Shown in pieces: positions 1 to 6,348 of a stretch of 27,211 nucleotides of DNA (position 1 is its first letter; each line of letters opens with the position of its first letter). The translations under genes were made by a program, and so were the position numbers. The notes beneath the pieces were generated by a model. That model ran no database searches. It saw nothing but the letters and a program-made list of their open reading frames with translations, and had not been told where the DNA came from. The stretch is taken from positions 1-27,211 of the IMG/VR virus record IMGVR_UViG_3300027852_000145. One strand, given 5' to 3'. The stretch comes from a virus.

Positions 1-777
1 TCCTGGGTAGTATTCATAATCCTTATCCACCCCAAAGAACGGCAGGAAGGTCCTGTAATCATTTGCATGGGCAAGCCGAACCTGCCCCGCGTATTTGTAA
101 CAGCACTCATAGATGACCCCGGAAGGCTTTTTAACTGGATCTGGAGTCCATGTGGTATCTGGCTTTCCTCTCCACCAGAGTAAGCTATCAACAATTTTTA
201 TATGGTACTTATTCACCTCGTATCCGCTGCCGTTATAGACTCTTGCGATTAGCCTCGCTATGCTTATCAACTCCTTCCTATCTGTAGCTTTATCTAAGGC
301 CCTCAATTCATCATCAATACCAGAAGCCTTGATGAACTCAATTACAGCATCCAGTTGGTTCGCTTCACTTTCAGCAAATGCAGACACCATTTGTTCTGCG
401 GTGTGATACCCGACCATCCGGTAGTTAAGCCCTAATACTTGACCCAACCCCCAGGAGCAACTTAACAGAGCCGCTTCAGGGTGATACTCATAAGCCTTTA
501 CCAGTCGTGCATAGTTGTTTTTATAATTCCGCCGCCACTTGGGATAGGCCAGTCCTTTTTTAACCGCATCCCGGCGCAATGCTCTCGGTAAAGAGCGGTA
601 GTAACAATGCTCTTCAAACAGGCGGATTACTCCATGCTTGTCAAAACCAACGCCACGCGACTCTGTATCCAATATGGAATGAATAACATCTTCGCCGACA
701 CCGATTTTATACCCGATTCTTGGTATATCGTAATCAGTAAGTTTTTTGCCCCGGCCTGACCAAGGATACGCGCTCAT
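1..777 (-). CDS. N-acetylmuramidase endolysin (DUF3380 type), C-terminus beyond window
   Basis: This frame is open from ATG at 777 to the window edge, giving 259 residues without a stop. The translation fits the DUF3380 N-acetylmuramidase family, which cleaves peptidoglycan glycan strands. A candidate catalytic Glu39 lies in DTESRG, followed by LFEEH at 53-57, the family-typical SWGLGQVLG at 108-116, and YNGSGY at 181-186. The muramidase domain appears complete by about residue 205. Residues 206-259 begin a linker or second domain, possibly wall-binding, whose end is not visible. The start is supported by AAGGAG about nine bases upstream. That ribosome site lies inside the first codons of the divergent plus-strand gene. 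No signal peptide is seen, so export probably depends on the holin. Family assignment is from recognised motifs only. Confidence 0.85.
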   Translation of the reverse strand, partial: MSAYPWSGRGKKLTDYDIPRIGYKIGVGEDVIHSILDTESRGVGFDKHGVIRLFEEHCYYRSLPRALRRDAVKKGLAYPKWRRNYKNNYARLVKAYEYHPEAALLSCSWGLGQVLGLNYRMVGYHTAEQMVSAFAESEANQLDAVIEFIKASGIDDELRALDKATDRKELISIARLIARVYNGSGYEVNKYHIKIVDSLLWWRGKPDTTWTPDPVKKPSGVIYECCYKYAGQVRLAHANDYRTFLPFFGVDKDYEYYPG

Positions 778-785
778 GTTATAAT
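756..785 (+). promoter_or_regulatory. Candidate sigma70 promoter for the plus-strand nuclease gene
   Basis: A perfect -10 hexamer TATAAT lies at 780-785, with CTGACC (4 of 6 matches to TTGACA) at 756-761 and an 18-base spacer. Transcription would begin near 791-793, at the ATG at 793. The mRNA would then be leaderless or nearly so. The element straddles the start codon (775-777) of the divergent lysin gene. This is sequence evidence only. Confidence 0.45.
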
Positions 786-792
786 GCTCCTT

Positions 793-1272
793 ATGCCAAA
801 TAGACTCATTGATCGTACTGGCCAAATCTTTGGCCGCTTGACTGTTATTGTCAGAGCCAAAAATAAAAATGGCCGCACAGCCTGGAAATGCCTTTGCGAT
901 TGTGGAAACGAACACATTGCTCTAGGGGATAACCTTAAAGGTGGAAGCGTTCAATCCTGCGGATGTCTCGCTATTGATAGCGTCAGAGAAAGAAGTATTA
1001 CCCATGGCATGGACGGAACCCCCGAATACAGGTCATGGTGTTCGATGAAAAGGCGCTGCCTTGGTCCAAATCACCATAAATACCCAGATTATGGGGGTCG
1101 TGGCATTACTATCTGCGATAGGTGGGTAAACTCCTTCAGCACCTTCTATTCTGATATGGGGCCTCGGCCTGAAGGCAAGACCCTTGACCGCATTGACGGC
1201 AATGGTTCGTATACCCCCGAGAACTGCCGATGGGCTACTTCTTTAGAACAAAGACACAACCGAAGTAGATAA
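793..1272 (+). CDS. Homing-endonuclease-like phage protein (GRGI/CRWAT family), plus strand
   Basis: This is the only convincing plus-strand gene. It encodes 159 residues from ATG 793; an in-frame ATG at 784 would add three but falls inside the candidate -10 box. The N-terminus has the common phage module GQIFGRLTVI, then a probable zinc ribbon (Cys33, 35, 37, 56, 58). After it come YGGRGITICDRW and LDRIDGNGSYTPENCRWAT near 99-148. Such proteins recur singly in phage genomes and are usually annotated as HNH-like or AP2-type free-standing homing nucleases. No classical HNH triad is evident, so cleavage activity is unproven. It is wedged between two lysis genes, 8 bases from one stop, with its 5' end over the lysin ribosome site. 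This placement suggests a selfish insertion. Confidence 0.7.
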   Translation: MPNRLIDRTGQIFGRLTVIVRAKNKNGRTAWKCLCDCGNEHIALGDNLKGGSVQSCGCLAIDSVRERSITHGMDGTPEYRSWCSMKRRCLGPNHHKYPDYGGRGITICDRWVNSFSTFYSDMGPRPEGKTLDRIDGNGSYTPENCRWATSLEQRHNRSR

Positions 1273-1280
1273 CACGCCCC

Positions 1281-1514
1281 TCATCTACCTGGCTTCCTGT
1301 TAACTGGTCTTGCTGGTGGCTGCTTGGCCTTTGCCTTCAATCGCATTTCCATTTCATTAAGCTGGACCTGCATACGGATTATTTCTTGTTGCCGAGCCAA
1401 CAAAACATCTACGGCTGACAATCTTTGGTCTTGCTCTCGCTGCCAATCAGCTGCATAGACCAAAGCACAACCCATAGCCCCGATAAGGATCTTAATAATG
1501 GTCTCTGTTTTCAT
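1281..1514 (-). CDS. Small one-helix membrane protein of the lysis cassette (spanin-like)
   Basis: The protein has 77 residues. A hydrophobic segment at about residues 6-22 is followed by a Glu/Gln/Arg-rich stretch likely to form a coiled coil, and then a Pro/Arg-rich tail. This is the layout of inner-membrane spanins (Rz type), but it is much shorter than lambda Rz, and no nested Rz1-like lipoprotein frame was recognised. The ATG at 1514 is chosen over the GTG at 1520 because it forms an ATGA overlap with the stop of the upstream peptidase gene. Its position between a peptidase and a muramidase supports a lysis role, possibly as spanin or holin partner. No sequence family was recognised with certainty. 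Confidence 0.6.
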   Translation of the reverse strand: MKTETIIKILIGAMGCALVYAADWQREQDQRLSAVDVLLARQQEIIRMQVQLNEMEMRLKAKAKQPPARPVNRKPGR

Positions 1515-2032
1515 AGCCACTTATCCCAATCATCAGTTGGCTTCTGTTTACCCGGACTCCTGCGCCATCTTGATTCTGCCAATCGAAGATAAGGGGATAG
1601 AGATACATCCCTCGGAGATAGGTGGGAAGGCCTGCCGTGGAGCAGGTCTAAACCACCAACAGAAAAAGCTGTCAGCACTAACTCAGAGCAGAAATACTTA
1701 TCATCTGCAGGCTCATCACGCCTGGATAAAAATCTGGCGATAGCTCCAAAATCGTAATCCTTTCCGATTTGCTGCATTAAAAAAGTCTTAACCGCCTTCG
1801 TATTAAACTCGGGATCTATATCGTAAAAGTCTATCTTGGTTTTAGGGTCATGCCCTTCCCAAGGATCGCTGATGCGTCTTACGCCGCCTATATGCCACGC
1901 CTCAATTACTGTACCCGTATCCAGTTGGACGGCAACATGGGAATATATACTCCGAGTCTGCCATCTAATAGCCTTAGATACCCAGCCGCGTCCTTGGTAT
2001 AAGAGAATCCTCATTTTCTTGCTAAGGGCCAC
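1511..2032 (-). CDS. YiiX/YaeF-like permuted NlpC/P60 cysteine peptidase
   Basis: The 173-residue protein looks like the circularly permuted papain-like fold of the YiiX/YaeF group in the NlpC/P60 superfamily. SHV contains the candidate His32, VIEAW follows at about 42-46, and YFCSEL carries the candidate nucleophile Cys115 with Glu117. Family members act as amidases or peptidases on peptides or lipids. In this lysis cassette a role on peptidoglycan cross-links or in releasing anchored components is plausible but inferred. The GTG at 2032 is preferred because GAGGTG lies at proper spacing; the ATG at 2014 has no good ribosome site. It overlaps the previous gene by 11 bases and the next by 4, implying coupled translation. 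No signal peptide is seen. Confidence 0.72.
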   Translation of the reverse strand: MALSKKMRILLYQGRGWVSKAIRWQTRSIYSHVAVQLDTGTVIEAWHIGGVRRISDPWEGHDPKTKIDFYDIDPEFNTKAVKTFLMQQIGKDYDFGAIARFLSRRDEPADDKYFCSELVLTAFSVGGLDLLHGRPSHLSPRDVSLSPYLRLAESRWRRSPGKQKPTDDWDKWL

Positions 2033-2252
2033 ATTTCACCTCAATATCCTGGCGAAGAATTACCAGCGCCGCCATGCTAGCAACATGATCAGCCTCAACT
2101 ATCTGCTGTAGCTCTTCCAGCTTCTCAGCTTGAACAGGATGAATGTTCTGCATCTCCCGAGTGAAGGTGATCACCTGAATCTGTAGCACAATAGTTGCCA
2201 CCAACAGCACTGTAACCACACCCCACAAAATAAATTGCGGCTTACCAGTCAT
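2022..2252 (-). CDS. Small one-helix membrane protein, possible spanin or holin partner
   Basis: The protein has 76 residues. A strong hydrophobic helix at about residues 8-26 is followed by a roughly 50-residue, mostly helical hydrophilic domain ending in KCGP. This fits an N-in, C-out inner-membrane protein such as a short i-spanin or an accessory holin. The start ATG at 2252 has an excellent AGGAGG site and overlaps the stop of the holin gene as ATGA. With the 77-residue membrane protein downstream, the cassette contains two small one-helix proteins. The sequence cannot show which of them, if either, spans the envelope. No family was recognised. Confidence 0.6.
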   Translation of the reverse strand: MTGKPQFILWGVVTVLLVATIVLQIQVITFTREMQNIHPVQAEKLEELQQIVEADHVASMAALVILRQDIEVKCGP

Positions 2253-2563
2253 GTGGTCCTCCTCTCTTTGCGCAGATATTTATATAAGACATCTTCTAGG
2301 AGCTTGTACCCGACAGATGCAATGGCCGCAGAAGCCCCCAGAACCGCCAGAATCGGCGCATCAGGGATCAATAGCAGCACAGCCCCACTGCTGGCGCCCA
2401 GCCCTCCAGACACCAGTCCTTGACCCAGGATCTGCCTTACCTTGTGGTCTTTGTCCGCAACCAGCATCTGACCCATACCAATAACCGCACCTACAAACCA
2501 AGTCGCTAAGTGAGTAGCCCATCCAGACAATGCGCTTTGCGTTATTATTTCTTTTTCCGGCAT
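2249..2563 (-). CDS. Holin
   Basis: This is a 104-residue protein with a short polar N-terminus (MPEKEI). Hydrophobic segments lie at about residues 16-37 and 50-92, the latter probably two helices rich in Gly and Ala. A basic C-terminus ends in RKERRTT. Size and layout are typical of phage holins with two or three membrane helices, which make inner-membrane lesions that trigger lysis. The open frame extends upstream to 2608, but ATG 2563 is preferred: it has AAGGA upstream, and the extension would be read through the terminator hairpin. It is the first gene of the lysis cassette, and its stop overlaps the next start. The exact holin class is uncertain. Confidence 0.7.
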   Translation of the reverse strand: MPEKEIITQSALSGWATHLATWFVGAVIGMGQMLVADKDHKVRQILGQGLVSGGLGASSGAVLLLIPDAPILAVLGASAAIASVGYKLLEDVLYKYLRKERRTT

Positions 2564-2585
2564 TATTGCTGTCCTTGAGAAGCAC

Positions 2586-2606
2586 AAAAAGCCCCAAAAA
2601 TGGGGC
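2586..2606 (-). terminator. Intrinsic terminator between virion genes and lysis cassette
   Basis: A six-pair stem is formed by GCCCCA at 2591-2596 and TGGGGC at 2601-2606 with an AAAA loop. On the minus strand it is followed directly by TTTTT (2590-2586). It lies in the 122-base gap between the last virion gene and the holin. It would reduce or stop late transcripts unless they are antiterminated. On the plus strand no comparable U-tract follows. Confidence 0.75.
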
Positions 2607-2685
2607 AATGTGTTATATTTTCGGAATGGATGACTATACTGCTAGAGCGATTCTCGGCCCTCTCGGTGTCTTATTGCTTATTACT

Positions 2686-4368
2686 TTATTTCGTGGCGGT
2701 AAACAAACCCTGTCCCGCCGCTGGGACCAGGAAGGGCGTGGACTTCCGTATGTAATCGGCCATAAACTGGGCATGTGGTGGTCTAGACGATAACAGTCCC
2801 TGCATTAAGGCTGACCCCTTCTGTGAATACATTGGCATGAGAGGTGCGGTAAATAATCCACCAAGTCCGCCAGTGATTGGATTGGTCATCAAAGACCTAC
2901 CTGCCGTGCCAGAGTCAGGAACCTTGTTTGGTAGTGTTGCCTTTGCTTTTTCAGACAAGCCCTGCATCAAGGCGGTGCCCTCCGCAAAAGCACGTTTATC
3001 CTTGCTTTTATCAAGAGCGCGAACAGCATTTTGTAATTGAGCTGGAGTGAACAAACCCTCATCAGCGCCTAACCCTCCTGCCGCTCTCTGCACTCGCTTA
3101 AAATTGGCATAACCCGTATTGATCTTTTTCAGCTCTGCTGCATATTTTGGGTTGTTTCGAGCCAGCATGTCATCAAATGATTTTAGGACGGCCCCAAATG
3201 CATCTCCCAAGTCGCGCTGAAAAGGGTCTTGGCTATCACTAAATTTTTCAGCGTTCTTTCTTACGCTCTCTTGAATTGCCTTTAATGATTCACCTGACAT
3301 TTTACCATAAGGAGTGATTCGCTTAACTGTGTCGTAATTAATCCTTTTCCTAAAGATTTTAGCCAACTCTTCTGGGAGACCGTTATCAACCATATCTACA
3401 ATACGATCAAACTCACCCTGGAATTGATCGTCTATCTTTCCAGACATTTTGGATAACAGGCCATCATAGGCATTGCCAAGCTCTTTTCTTGCATAGGCAA
3501 CTGCCTGACGGGACTCCATGTTTCCTGGCACTTTTTTATCTATGGGTGCAAGAGATCGATTGATAGCAGCGTCATTAAACTCTTTATACCCACGCATTCT
3601 GGCGGTTTCAATCGTCTTTCCAGTAAACGGAACACTGGTAAGTTTATCTTCAACATCTTTCCACATCCCCCCCAATCTCTGCCCAACAGTGGTTTTAATG
3701 CCTTCCAAATTTAATGCCTTTACCCCTTTGTCAATCTGAGGCGCAACAACTCTGGCAACACCGCCAGTAATAAGAGGAACAGCGCCACCACCAACGGCGC
3801 CTAGTTGTGCCTGGGCTCCCTTTTCGCTCCATAAATCATCTGAATAAGCTGGCTGGCCTAAGACCGCCAGACCAGCACCACCCATAGCATTAGCAGCAAC
3901 TCTACCGCCAAGACTCGCAGCTTGGGGGATGCGGGAAGCAGCAGCAACATTAGCTGGGTTAAACACATTACCAGCCAGCCTAGCCCAATCAATCCCTGCC
4001 TCTCCTGCTTGCGCTCTGCTCTGCTGGTATGCCTGTTCTTGCTGTTTGATCTGCTGATCAATGCCTCCGGCAGGCAACGGGTCTCCAAGCCCGTACTGCG
4101 CTGCTTTATTGTGGAGCCAGTTAACGCCAGATACTAAGGGGTCAGGCAAAACCTTGCTCAGTAATTGAGCGGAGGCATCCAATGGATCACGCAGCCCCTT
4201 CACAAACCCACTAGGAGGCGCTGACGCCCTGGCAGGCGGCTGTGGCTGGCTTCCAGCTCCTTGGTAGTTATTCTGCGCGTATGTAAGCACATCCTGCTCA
4301 GAAGATCCTTCTGGAGCAGTTATCTCGTACTCATTACCATCTGGTGCTGTAATGACAAATACCGGCAT
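2686..4368 (-). CDS. Large internal/ejection-type virion protein
   Basis: The 560-residue protein starts with a short module seen at the N-terminus of many phage virion proteins (APDGNEYEITAPEG, about residues 8-21). Next come a Pro/Gln/Ala-rich linker and a Gly/Ala-rich stretch near 130-200 that may interact with membranes. A largely helical body with many Lys, Arg and Glu completes it. Size, position at the end of the structural operon and composition suit a podovirus internal or DNA-ejection protein, but no specific family was recognised. ATG 4368 has GGAGGAAG upstream, just after the previous stop; the open frame continues upstream to 4428 without a better start. The gene ends 122 bases before the holin and a terminator follows. 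Confidence 0.6.
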   Translation of the reverse strand: MPVFVITAPDGNEYEITAPEGSSEQDVLTYAQNNYQGAGSQPQPPARASAPPSGFVKGLRDPLDASAQLLSKVLPDPLVSGVNWLHNKAAQYGLGDPLPAGGIDQQIKQQEQAYQQSRAQAGEAGIDWARLAGNVFNPANVAAASRIPQAASLGGRVAANAMGGAGLAVLGQPAYSDDLWSEKGAQAQLGAVGGGAVPLITGGVARVVAPQIDKGVKALNLEGIKTTVGQRLGGMWKDVEDKLTSVPFTGKTIETARMRGYKEFNDAAINRSLAPIDKKVPGNMESRQAVAYARKELGNAYDGLLSKMSGKIDDQFQGEFDRIVDMVDNGLPEELAKIFRKRINYDTVKRITPYGKMSGESLKAIQESVRKNAEKFSDSQDPFQRDLGDAFGAVLKSFDDMLARNNPKYAAELKKINTGYANFKRVQRAAGGLGADEGLFTPAQLQNAVRALDKSKDKRAFAEGTALMQGLSEKAKATLPNKVPDSGTAGRSLMTNPITGGLGGLFTAPLMPMYSQKGSALMQGLLSSRPPHAQFMADYIRKSTPFLVPAAGQGLFTATK

Positions 4369-4369
4369 C

Positions 4370-5449
4370 TCACTTCCTCCGAATAGACCAGCCGTCCTGG
4401 GTTGCGGGATCGACCTGCCCTCCACCACCTAAGTAGCTAGACAGATCATTCTGATCGACATAGGACCAAACAGCCTCTTGAATTTCCATGGATGACTTAT
4501 TAGCTCGCTGCATACGTCTCACCATGCGGGACAAGTCTGCATCGCGCTTGGCTTTAGACTTCTTCCATGCAAGGATAGCCCTGTTGCCTTCTGGCGTGTT
4601 GCCGTAGTTGGCAGAATACTGGGTAAATAGATCCATCTCTTTCTCAGAGACCGCGCCCTTGGTTTCAGCAACCCTAGCCATGATCTGGTCACCAAGTAGA
4701 ACGCGCAACTCTTCAGATGACCCAATCTTATCCCAGTCAACACTAAACCCCATCCTGCCGGCCAGCCTTTTGCCCTCCATGATCGACTGTTCAAGCGGCC
4801 CAGTTGGAACTTTCTCAAGTAGCTTAATAGCTCGCTCATAGTTGCCGATGTCCTTCTGTGCGCTATGACCCTGCGACAGAACCCCGGCATTAAATTTACG
4901 CGCTCCAGTGGCCCTGGAAAGAACGTCTTCACGCTTGATCTCCTGATCGGTTGGTAGGCGCTGTTTAGCGGTATTGACCTGTATTGCCCCAGCAGTCTTG
5001 AGCCGTTCCTGACCTGCTATGTAGTTAGGGTCATATTCCCACTGACCATCGACCCCGGCCCTCATCCCAGTCGGAAGTTTTGGCTGAGTAGGCGCATATT
5101 TTTGCTTAAGCATAGACTCAGCAATGCCGGGATATGCCTGGGCTATCTGGCCTATTTGCGGGTTATCTGCAAACAGTGCCGTCTGAGCATGTCTCTGACT
5201 CTGCGCTCGACCCATCTGCCCCCGCATCTGTTGCATCCGCAAGTCGCGCATTTGCTGTTGGGCATCAAACTGCTGCTGCTGCATAGACCTTTGCTGTTCC
5301 TGCTGCTGCTGCGCCATCTGAAGTCGCTGCTGCTGGCCCAGACCAAGCAATCCGGACTGAATGCCCCGGCCTATATTGCCCTGTGCGCCCAGAATCCCGG
5401 CTCCCATCTGGAAAAGAGGATTCTGCAAGTAATCATATTTGTTAGCCAT
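4370..5449 (-). CDS. Gln-rich virion/internal protein
   Basis: The protein has 359 residues. The N-terminus has a Gly/Leu-rich segment (about 15-38). It is followed by a strongly Gln/Met/Arg-rich region at about 39-85 encoded by CAG/CTG-type triplet runs. The remainder is helical and charged. Proteins of this type, with low-complexity Gln stretches, are common beside podovirus internal virion genes. The function is inferred only from position between two other probable internal proteins. The start ATG at 5449 shares one base with the previous stop (TAATG), and the next gene starts two bases after this stop. Confidence 0.55.
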   Translation of the reverse strand: MANKYDYLQNPLFQMGAGILGAQGNIGRGIQSGLLGLGQQQRLQMAQQQQEQQRSMQQQQFDAQQQMRDLRMQQMRGQMGRAQSQRHAQTALFADNPQIGQIAQAYPGIAESMLKQKYAPTQPKLPTGMRAGVDGQWEYDPNYIAGQERLKTAGAIQVNTAKQRLPTDQEIKREDVLSRATGARKFNAGVLSQGHSAQKDIGNYERAIKLLEKVPTGPLEQSIMEGKRLAGRMGFSVDWDKIGSSEELRVLLGDQIMARVAETKGAVSEKEMDLFTQYSANYGNTPEGNRAILAWKKSKAKRDADLSRMVRRMQRANKSSMEIQEAVWSYVDQNDLSSYLGGGGQVDPATQDGWSIRRK

Positions 5450-6348
5450 TATCTAAACCCCCATCCTGAAGTAGGAGCCATCATGGTTCCCATTGGAACG
5501 GAAGGAGCACCGCCGCCGAACAACCCACCCGCCCCACTCATAGCCATCATCGGGTTACCGGACATCATTCCCAGGCCCATCATCCCGGCCCCAAGGACAT
5601 TTCCGAACATATTGCTCGGTTGTTTTGATGTGCTTGTAGTCGTTCCATACCCGGCGCCACCACCCAATAAGCTGTTGTATCGGCTCAATCGATCCCAAGG
5701 CTCGGTCTGCTCAAAATCATGTCTAGCAACAGCCTCATCGATGCCCCGCTGGTCTTCAGCTCGCATCTGACCGCCTATCTGCTGCTGTACCTGACCAGGC
5801 ATCATTCCAAGCTGTGCCATCTGAGGAGACATTCCCATGGCCGCGCTCTGCGCCTGCAAGCCCTGACCATATGCTCCGCCATACAAGTCAGCCAAGGAGC
5901 TACCAAGAGCCTCCTGGGTGCCTCTGGCGGCTATTCCCTGTGCTACCCCATGTCTGCTGGAGCCGGTTTGTCCTGCGCCCATCATCTGGTCTCTGATCCC
6001 GGGCATAAGTTGCTCATTAAAGTTACGGCCAAGCCTGTTCTGGATAACATCGGCTTGGGCAGATAGATATGGGTTGTTGGCTACATCAGGAGCCTGCAAG
6101 GCGCTCAACTGTGCCTGCTGGGCCGCTCCGACCTGGTTACCCAACCCCCCCCCGGCATAATCCAACTGGGACTGCATGCCCTGTTGCTGAAGCGGGTCCA
6201 TGCCGGCATAGGTCTGGCCTGGGAAAAATTGCTGTGGTTGGCCCGACAACTCTTCAGCTCCACCGAAAACATTCCTTAGATGTGGCTGGACCCCGGCCCA
6301 AGGAGAGGATGTTTGAGTTGATGTCTGTTTGCTGCTCTTGCCGCCCAT
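5449..6348 (-). CDS. Gly/Met/Gln-rich virion protein
   Basis: The 299-residue protein has a polar Ser/Thr/Lys N-terminus (MGGKSSKQTSTQTSSPWAG), a Gln/Ala-rich helical middle, and a Gly/Met-rich hydrophobic C-terminal tail from about residue 240. Proteins with this composition lie next to GNAT-like and internal virion genes in many podoviruses. They are thought to be internal or ejected, possibly membrane-interacting through the Gly/Met tail. That role is an inference. The start ATG has GGAGAT seven bases upstream. It is one base from the previous stop and overlaps the next start by one base. Confidence 0.55.
   Translation of the reverse strand: MGGKSSKQTSTQTSSPWAGVQPHLRNVFGGAEELSGQPQQFFPGQTYAGMDPLQQQGMQSQLDYAGGGLGNQVGAAQQAQLSALQAPDVANNPYLSAQADVIQNRLGRNFNEQLMPGIRDQMMGAGQTGSSRHGVAQGIAARGTQEALGSSLADLYGGAYGQGLQAQSAAMGMSPQMAQLGMMPGQVQQQIGGQMRAEDQRGIDEAVARHDFEQTEPWDRLSRYNSLLGGGAGYGTTTSTSKQPSNMFGNVLGAGMMGLGMMSGNPMMAMSGAGGLFGGGAPSVPMGTMMAPTSGWGFR

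Follow-up and report, generated by a model that had tools for sequence, protein, structure and literature searches.

How homing genes that oppose their neighbours come to be expressed is an open question, and it is raised by a plus-strand gene found at one end of a 27,211-nt virus record (hereafter the window, by which we mean the whole stretch of DNA that was analysed). The record belongs to a podovirus-like phage (portal PHROG 1216, capsid PHROG 1328), in which the 35 other ORFs taken as genes are all on the minus strand. The reading that we favour, at a probability of roughly 0.6, is that this is an antisense, free-standing, homing-type nuclease gene of the PHROG 374 family, that it was inserted in the junction between a spanin-like gene and the lysin gene, and that it is expressed as a leaderless mRNA from a -10 box of its own. 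If this is correct, one stretch of DNA would serve as the spacer between the Shine-Dalgarno sequence (SD) and the ATG on one strand and as a -10 box on the other, with the start signal of the host gene left unbroken. This overlap in the window, as well as a series of occupied and empty sites around a relative (L228), makes the question testable.

The plus-strand gene and the lysis cassette

The contig end of the window is a lysis cassette, which comprises a holin, an endolysin and, between the two, a small protein followed by C92-like and spanin-like proteins. The holin (2249-2608, minus strand) is matched by PF04550 (E 5e-8) and PHROG 175 (E 8e-14). The permuted-papain (C92-like) protein (1511-2032, minus strand) has matches to PF05708 (E 2e-4, under the cut-off of that family) and to PHROG 1128 (E 4e-30), whose enoyl-CoA hydratase-like label is at odds with the Pfam hint. 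The spanin-like small protein (1281-1520, minus strand) shows a weak match to the Rz-like PHROG 1152 (E 0.15). Finally, the endolysin, an N-acetylmuramidase (1-777, minus strand; Pfam PF11860, E 2e-34; PHROG 1224 endolysin, E 9e-53), has its start codon at 775-777 and its ORF continues past the contig end, while its SD, AAGGAG (787-792, minus strand), is 9 nt from the ATG. The closest match of this lysin among named phages, at 43%, is in Aurantimonas phage AmM-1, and the surroundings of related lysins in six named phages differ from those in the window.

The spanin-like stop and the lysin start are 503 nt apart, which is the largest of the 34 gaps between the 35 minus-strand ORFs (the second largest has 208 nt, and 26 of the 34 have 20 nt or less), and this gap is occupied by a single plus-strand gene (793-1272). 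Neither promoter nor terminator patterns were found on either strand of 786-1280; likewise, no terminator pattern was seen in 778-1280, and no promoter pattern for the lysin in the gap.

The plus-strand ORF spans 784-1272, but its first ATG, which would add MLL (784-792), was rejected as the start, as 11 aligned relatives begin near the ATG at 793. Since relatives begin with a sequence similar to MPxFIDRTGQ, the ATG at 793 is the likely start of a protein of 159 aa that ends with the stop at 1272. No SD was found upstream of this ATG, which is 15 nt from that of the lysin. At the other end, the convergent stops are separated by 8 nt (1273-1280), with the spanin-like stop codon beginning at 1281, as had been described in an earlier note on this DNA. 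The same note had also proposed that the 5′ end of the gene covers the lysin AAGGAG. This would be so only if the start were at 784; with a start at 793, the SD (787-792) lies immediately next to the gene, outside it. As the gene is upstream of the lysin SD, the translation signals of the lysin are intact.

Family and predicted fold of the protein

The protein (translated from 784) matches PHROG 374, “HNH endonuclease”, with an E of 9e-69, and tblastn against 50,697 named phage records detected relatives in 1113 of them, with less than 60% identity in all except 8. AlphaFold2 produced a model with a pLDDT of 82.0 (12 sequences), and another of the C-terminal 90 residues with a pLDDT of 91.7 (67 sequences) and a bba core. 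According to the model, to conservation and to VIA, the bba-metal core corresponds to residues 130-158 (1180-1266, plus strand) and includes D132-R133, Y140, N144 and N156; strands are modelled at 130-133 and 145-148 and a helix at 150-158, the pLDDT of the block being 87-97. When structures were compared with VIA-align, PacI (3ldy) was the top match both for the whole model (Z 6.0, 73 residues; the next had Z 4.8, on the N-terminal part) and for the C-terminal model (Z 6.1, rmsd 2.6, 75 residues; next row Z 3.6), while other HNH domains and I-HmuI (Z 2.0) were among the weaker rows. Foldseek returned no match with an E below 0.001 (PacI came up with the core model alone, at E 1.6), and its top ranks for the whole model (kinases, ribosomal chains) were taken as noise. 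As the Z for PacI is under 8 and the Foldseek results are not significant, the support for a bba fold is moderate. The designation of the gene as a nuclease in the earlier note is upheld by the PHROG 374 match and by a bba model with PacI at the top, but not by Pfam, NCBIfam or PDB sequence searches with the protein and its family, in which no HNH match was found, nor by the canonical first-strand catalytic His, which is absent.

In place of this His, the residue after D132 is an Arg, with a frequency of 1.00 in 192 aligned sequences, in which position 132 itself is D in 80% and E in 20%. In the same sequences, Y140, N144 and W147 have a conservation of 1.00, N156 of 0.98 and Y100 of 96%. PacI itself has D92, R93 and Y63. 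Because PacI, as described in PMC4081073, uses a tyrosine as general base in place of His, the sequence is most readily interpreted as having a PacI-like active site, with Y140 or Y100 as candidate tyrosines; in such a variant, the metal ligands would be an Asp and an Asn. Additionally, residues 31-58 (883-966, plus strand) resemble, by their conservation, a Zn-ribbon with cysteines at 33, 35, 37, 56 and 58. C35, C37, C56 and C58 are present in at least 99% of the 192 aligned sequences, and C33 in 89%, and this cluster may bind Zn.

The protein has a tail of just 3 residues after N156, compared with a median of 53 in the 192 sequences, as would be expected if it were the decaying remnant of an antisense homing gene, with its C-terminal part lost and its activity gone. 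We consider this quite improbable, since the frame is intact, the highly conserved residues are kept and 44 of the 192 tails have 20 residues or fewer; moreover, the tails of three nucleases that occupy a common site in other phages (L228, L415 and L417, see below) are also short (18-22 residues, counted by eye). By eye as well, the C-terminal tails in L040, L067, L068 and L075 look AP2-like, whilst those of other relatives look HTH-like or are absent; a Pfam scan of L040, the one member of these four that was scanned, gave no AP2 match.

The HNH homing endonuclease I-HmuI is intron-encoded. For the gene in the window this possibility was rejected, given its antisense position in an intergenic gap and the lack of Rfam matches at the gathering threshold on both strands of the window.

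Promoter boxes at the nuclease start

A -10 box, TATAAT (780-785, plus strand), is located at -13 from the nuclease ATG and, with the TG at 777-778, forms the extended -10 TGTTATAAT. It is preceded, with a spacer of 18, by a weak -35-like sequence, CTGACC (756-761, plus strand; 4/6). The earlier note had pointed out both boxes, as well as the location of the lysin start codon in the spacer between them, and all three are indeed present. TATAAT is the complement of the spacer between the lysin SD and its ATG. Transcription starting 7-8 nt past the -10 would fall on 792-793, i.e., on the nuclease ATG. Leaderless sigma-70 genes are marked by the lack of an SD and by a -10 located about 12 nt upstream of the start codon, and here TATAAT is at -13 and an SD is absent. 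Judging from the sequence, a leaderless nuclease mRNA is plausible, and this layout recurs in part of the antisense relatives.

By themselves, the boxes are not above chance, as their counts are close to those expected. For instance, TATAAT appears 8 times on the plus strand of the window (7.5 expected), TGNTATAAT once on the plus strand and never on the minus (0.46 expected per strand), and 3 promoter-like sites are found on both strands of 1-4000, compared with 5.6 in shuffles. Antisense -10 boxes are also found upstream of 2 of the 34 minus-strand genes in this phage, one of which is the lysin. These counts would suit an alternative in which the gene is likewise an antisense homing gene, but TATAAT arose by chance in the A/T-rich lysin spacer, so that the nuclease is scarcely expressed or depends on distant plus-strand transcription. 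Such a situation has a precedent in segD of T4, for which, according to PMC2988022, a promoter was not found, the amount of transcript was taken to be vanishingly small and distant transcription was suggested. The placement of the box relative to the start codon, in turn, is backed by relatives, though not by the third of the batches described below.

The -10 box in relatives of the nuclease

The box was searched for in 192 genes, that of the window among them, whose start could be defined and from which duplicates had been removed; they were gathered in three batches. The first two batches together had 188 loci among the matches listed, of which 31 were dropped (partial, or with a start more than 15 codons off) and 14 were duplicates, leaving 143; the third batch had 79 loci among the matches listed, and 49 were kept after removing 24 duplicates, 4 partial genes and 2 with a far start. 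The relatives gathered in this way sample the family in the neighbourhood of the query. Orientation was assigned from the ORF strand in the 2.5-kb flanks, on the basis of ORF lengths and not of a gene finder, and resulted in 38 antisense, 124 sense and 30 unclear genes. A hexamer was accepted as a -10 when at least 5 of its 6 positions agreed with TATAAT, with A2 and T6 required, and was called near when found at -14 to -11.

When the window is left out, a -10 at exactly -13 is observed in 3/37 of the antisense genes, 0/124 of the sense genes and 2/30 of the unclear ones (Fisher for antisense and sense, 0.011), and a near -10 in 4/37, 1/124 and 3/30, respectively (Fisher for antisense and sense, 0.010). 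The genes with the box at exactly -13 are those of the window, L004, L052, L228, L252 and L278, and the identity between them is 36-50%. In the first two batches, this box was present in 6 of the 69 genes without an SD and in none of the 74 with one. Among all genes without an SD, again leaving out the window, 5 of 98 have it at -13 (single-offset p 2.7e-4), the highest count at any other offset being 3; after correction for 95 offsets, the p for this peak is about 0.03.

The batches did not behave alike. A near -10 was observed in 2/8 antisense vs. 0/44 sense genes in the first batch, which includes the window, and in 3/19 vs. 0/49 in the second (p 0.019; for exactly -13, 2/19 vs. 0/49, p 0.075), but in 0/11 vs. 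1/31 in the third. The excess was therefore replicated in the second batch only and, as no antisense gene of the third has a near -10, the -13 layout must be considered a minority trait. In all, 33 of the 38 antisense genes, including the window, lack a near -10. In the first two batches, a box is missing both at the near distance and at -40 to -15 in 18 of 27 antisense genes, and boxes at -40 to -15 are not more common in antisense genes (4/27) than in sense genes (25/93).

The third batch and the 33 antisense genes without a near box agree with a chance TATAAT in the lysin spacer. By contrast, the restriction of the -13 excess to genes that lack an SD and have an antisense or unclear setting argues against it, as does the recurrence of the layout in L004, L228, L252 and in L417, which shares its site with L228. 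With both sides considered, we regard a chance box as unlikely, although far from negligible, and the leaderless expression of the nuclease from its own -10 as the better explanation.

The settings of these relatives are diverse. In L004, the ORFs on both sides of the nuclease are on the minus strand, antisense to it; at its 3′ end the nuclease gene runs 34 nt into the preceding ORF, and its TATACT overlaps the end of the SD of the next gene and the spacer between this SD and the ATG. In L252, the nuclease is found between the portal and scaffold genes and overlaps the 3′ end of the portal gene by 47 nt. In the named-phage regions around relatives, as picked from the match lists, 10 of the 10 annotated ones are in the sense orientation (an eleventh record carried no annotation). 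Additionally, [AT]CC at -5 to -3 was noticed, by eye, as common to the four antisense genes with the box at -13.

Occupied and empty sites

The nuclease of L228, which is 48% identical to that of the window, is antisense and has a -10 at -13. With the P22-like capsid protein of L228 as a query, 39 loci were obtained, including the contig of L228 itself under the name L434. Three of them (L434, L415 and L417) are occupied, with the nuclease antisense between the capsid gene and the next gene, and the distance from the capsid stop to the next ATG is 517, 527 and 515 nt, respectively. In 24 records the same next gene is present without the nuclease, with a spacing of 2-41 nt in the 21 whose start was located. 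The remaining loci either have another or an undetected next gene and no nuclease (8) or end at the capsid stop (4). The earlier note had named the same arrangement in every relative as the observation that would argue against an insertion; what is found at this site is 3 occupied and 24 empty records, which supports an insertion in the case of L228.

The nucleases of L228, L415 and L417 are mutually their two best matches in the set (53-55%), as is expected of site-specific homing genes, and their 3′ ends extend antisense into the capsid gene. The leaders of the empty sites L416 and L418 (39 and 41 nt) are nearly as long as the stretch from the nuclease ATG to the next ATG in L417 and L434 (about 45 nt), and the -10 of this group may have come either with the insert or from the host leader. 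The boxes in the occupied sites, identified by eye, are TATACT at -13 in L434, TAGACT at -13 in L417 (4/6) and TAAGAT at -15 in L415 (4/6); an antisense -10 is also found in 2 of the 21 records without the nuclease in which the start was located.

For the window phage, we infer the insertion, as its lysin was not found in any of the records searched. A pattern scan of viral contigs gave no relatives carrying this lysin. Other routes to relatives, through the C92 protein (one relative, 30%), the portal and the capsid, gave 96 loci in all, and the lysin was absent from the records of the 18 that were searched (0/18). In G004, no comparable lysis cassette was found downstream of the homologue of g299 (the 299-aa ORF at 5449-6348, minus strand). 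DNA searches with L228, L252, L004 and L008 showed no flanking synteny among the matches listed (16, 3, 42 and 3 records, respectively); these matches were short (1-3% of the query) and mostly in the nuclease, with one in a lysozyme/spanin region. In bacterial genomes, the family was found in 3 of 385 of one class, including the centre that was chosen for carrying it, which is too few for statistics.

The gene adjoins the lysin, and in L008:3518-4630 the start of a nuclease that is 53% identical meets, head to head and antisense, that of a GH108 endolysin, a lysin of a different family. There, the nuclease ATG abuts the likely endolysin ATG in a shared CATATG, and there is no -10 at -13. This association with lysins could be expected of a resident phage gene with another role, such as a packaging nuclease or the timing of lysis through antisense RNA, that was never inserted. 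Such a role seems very improbable to us: the family is scattered across unrelated phages and neighbours, it is present or absent at one same site in the L228 lineage, and the nuclease is unmatched in 17 of the 18 related or loosely related records mentioned above, with two partial matches in the other one.

A model for expression and spread

In the model that we propose, the nuclease gene was inserted backwards into the late operon of a podovirus-like phage. The extended -10 located in the spacer of the lysin would direct the synthesis of an RNA that starts at, or within 1-2 bases of, the nuclease ATG, and this RNA, starting at 793, would be translated as a leaderless mRNA, leaving the lysin start and SD uncovered. 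The lysin would be produced by read-through from the operon. The nuclease, in turn, would be produced as long as its own promoter is unoccupied; later, late transcription would cross this promoter, produce RNA antisense to the nuclease and shut its expression down. The nuclease could then spread by cutting phages without the gene at or near the junction.

The earlier note had suggested that each of the two genes could interfere with the expression of the other, which now appears overstated. A transcript from 793 would spare the lysin start and SD, and interference should be expected mainly in one direction, as read-through antisense to the nuclease. A more general proposal is that, in this family, antisense nucleases have repeatedly made a leaderless promoter out of the leader in which translation of the late gene downstream is initiated, and that late transcription silences this promoter; we put this forward tentatively, as something that may well not hold.

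Comparison with known systems

Searches of the open-access literature brought up no homing gene that is antisense and has a leaderless promoter. The only T4 homing gene opposed to its neighbours, according to PMC2988022, is segD, between capsid genes 23 and 24. As in the window, it is a free-standing nuclease gene in an intergenic junction and against its neighbours; however, segD is a GIY-YIG gene for which that text reports no promoter, while the gene in the window is HNH/PacI-like and has a candidate leaderless promoter. Leaderless initiation has been proposed, in PMC11855218, for the HNH genes hidden in the methylases of the mycobacteriophages ShiLan and Pacc40, which have no intron and no RBS. 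Pacc40 gp60 contains a match of the nuclease family of the window (47%). Unlike these genes, which the same paper places out of frame inside the host gene and on its strand, that of the window is antisense, intercistronic and has a -10 of its own.

With PacI, its best structural match, the nuclease of the window shares the replacement of the catalytic His, although PacI itself is a restriction enzyme. With I-HmuI it would share the bba core and a homing role, but no intron was detected at the window nuclease. The catalytic residue of I-HmuI, given as H75 in PMC12724721, appears to be replaced by the invariant Arg, as far as the positions can be matched by inference. The same paper reports PacI-like HNH genes in 2/268 Skunavirus, a class that was assigned by HHpred and that is likened here to the nuclease of the window by its description, not by its sequence.

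Two other arrangements were noticed in relatives. L230:1380-3759 has an antisense-type nuclease gene with an extended -10, TGTTATAGT, at -12, and next to it are small ORFs that resemble membrane proteins and lipoproteins, which may form another lysis cassette. In L350 and L363, GTCAACTCA ... TGAGTCAAC is found directly 5′ of the nuclease ATG; this element, with ACTCA/TGAGT as an inverted repeat and GTCAAC as a direct repeat, is a possible operator.
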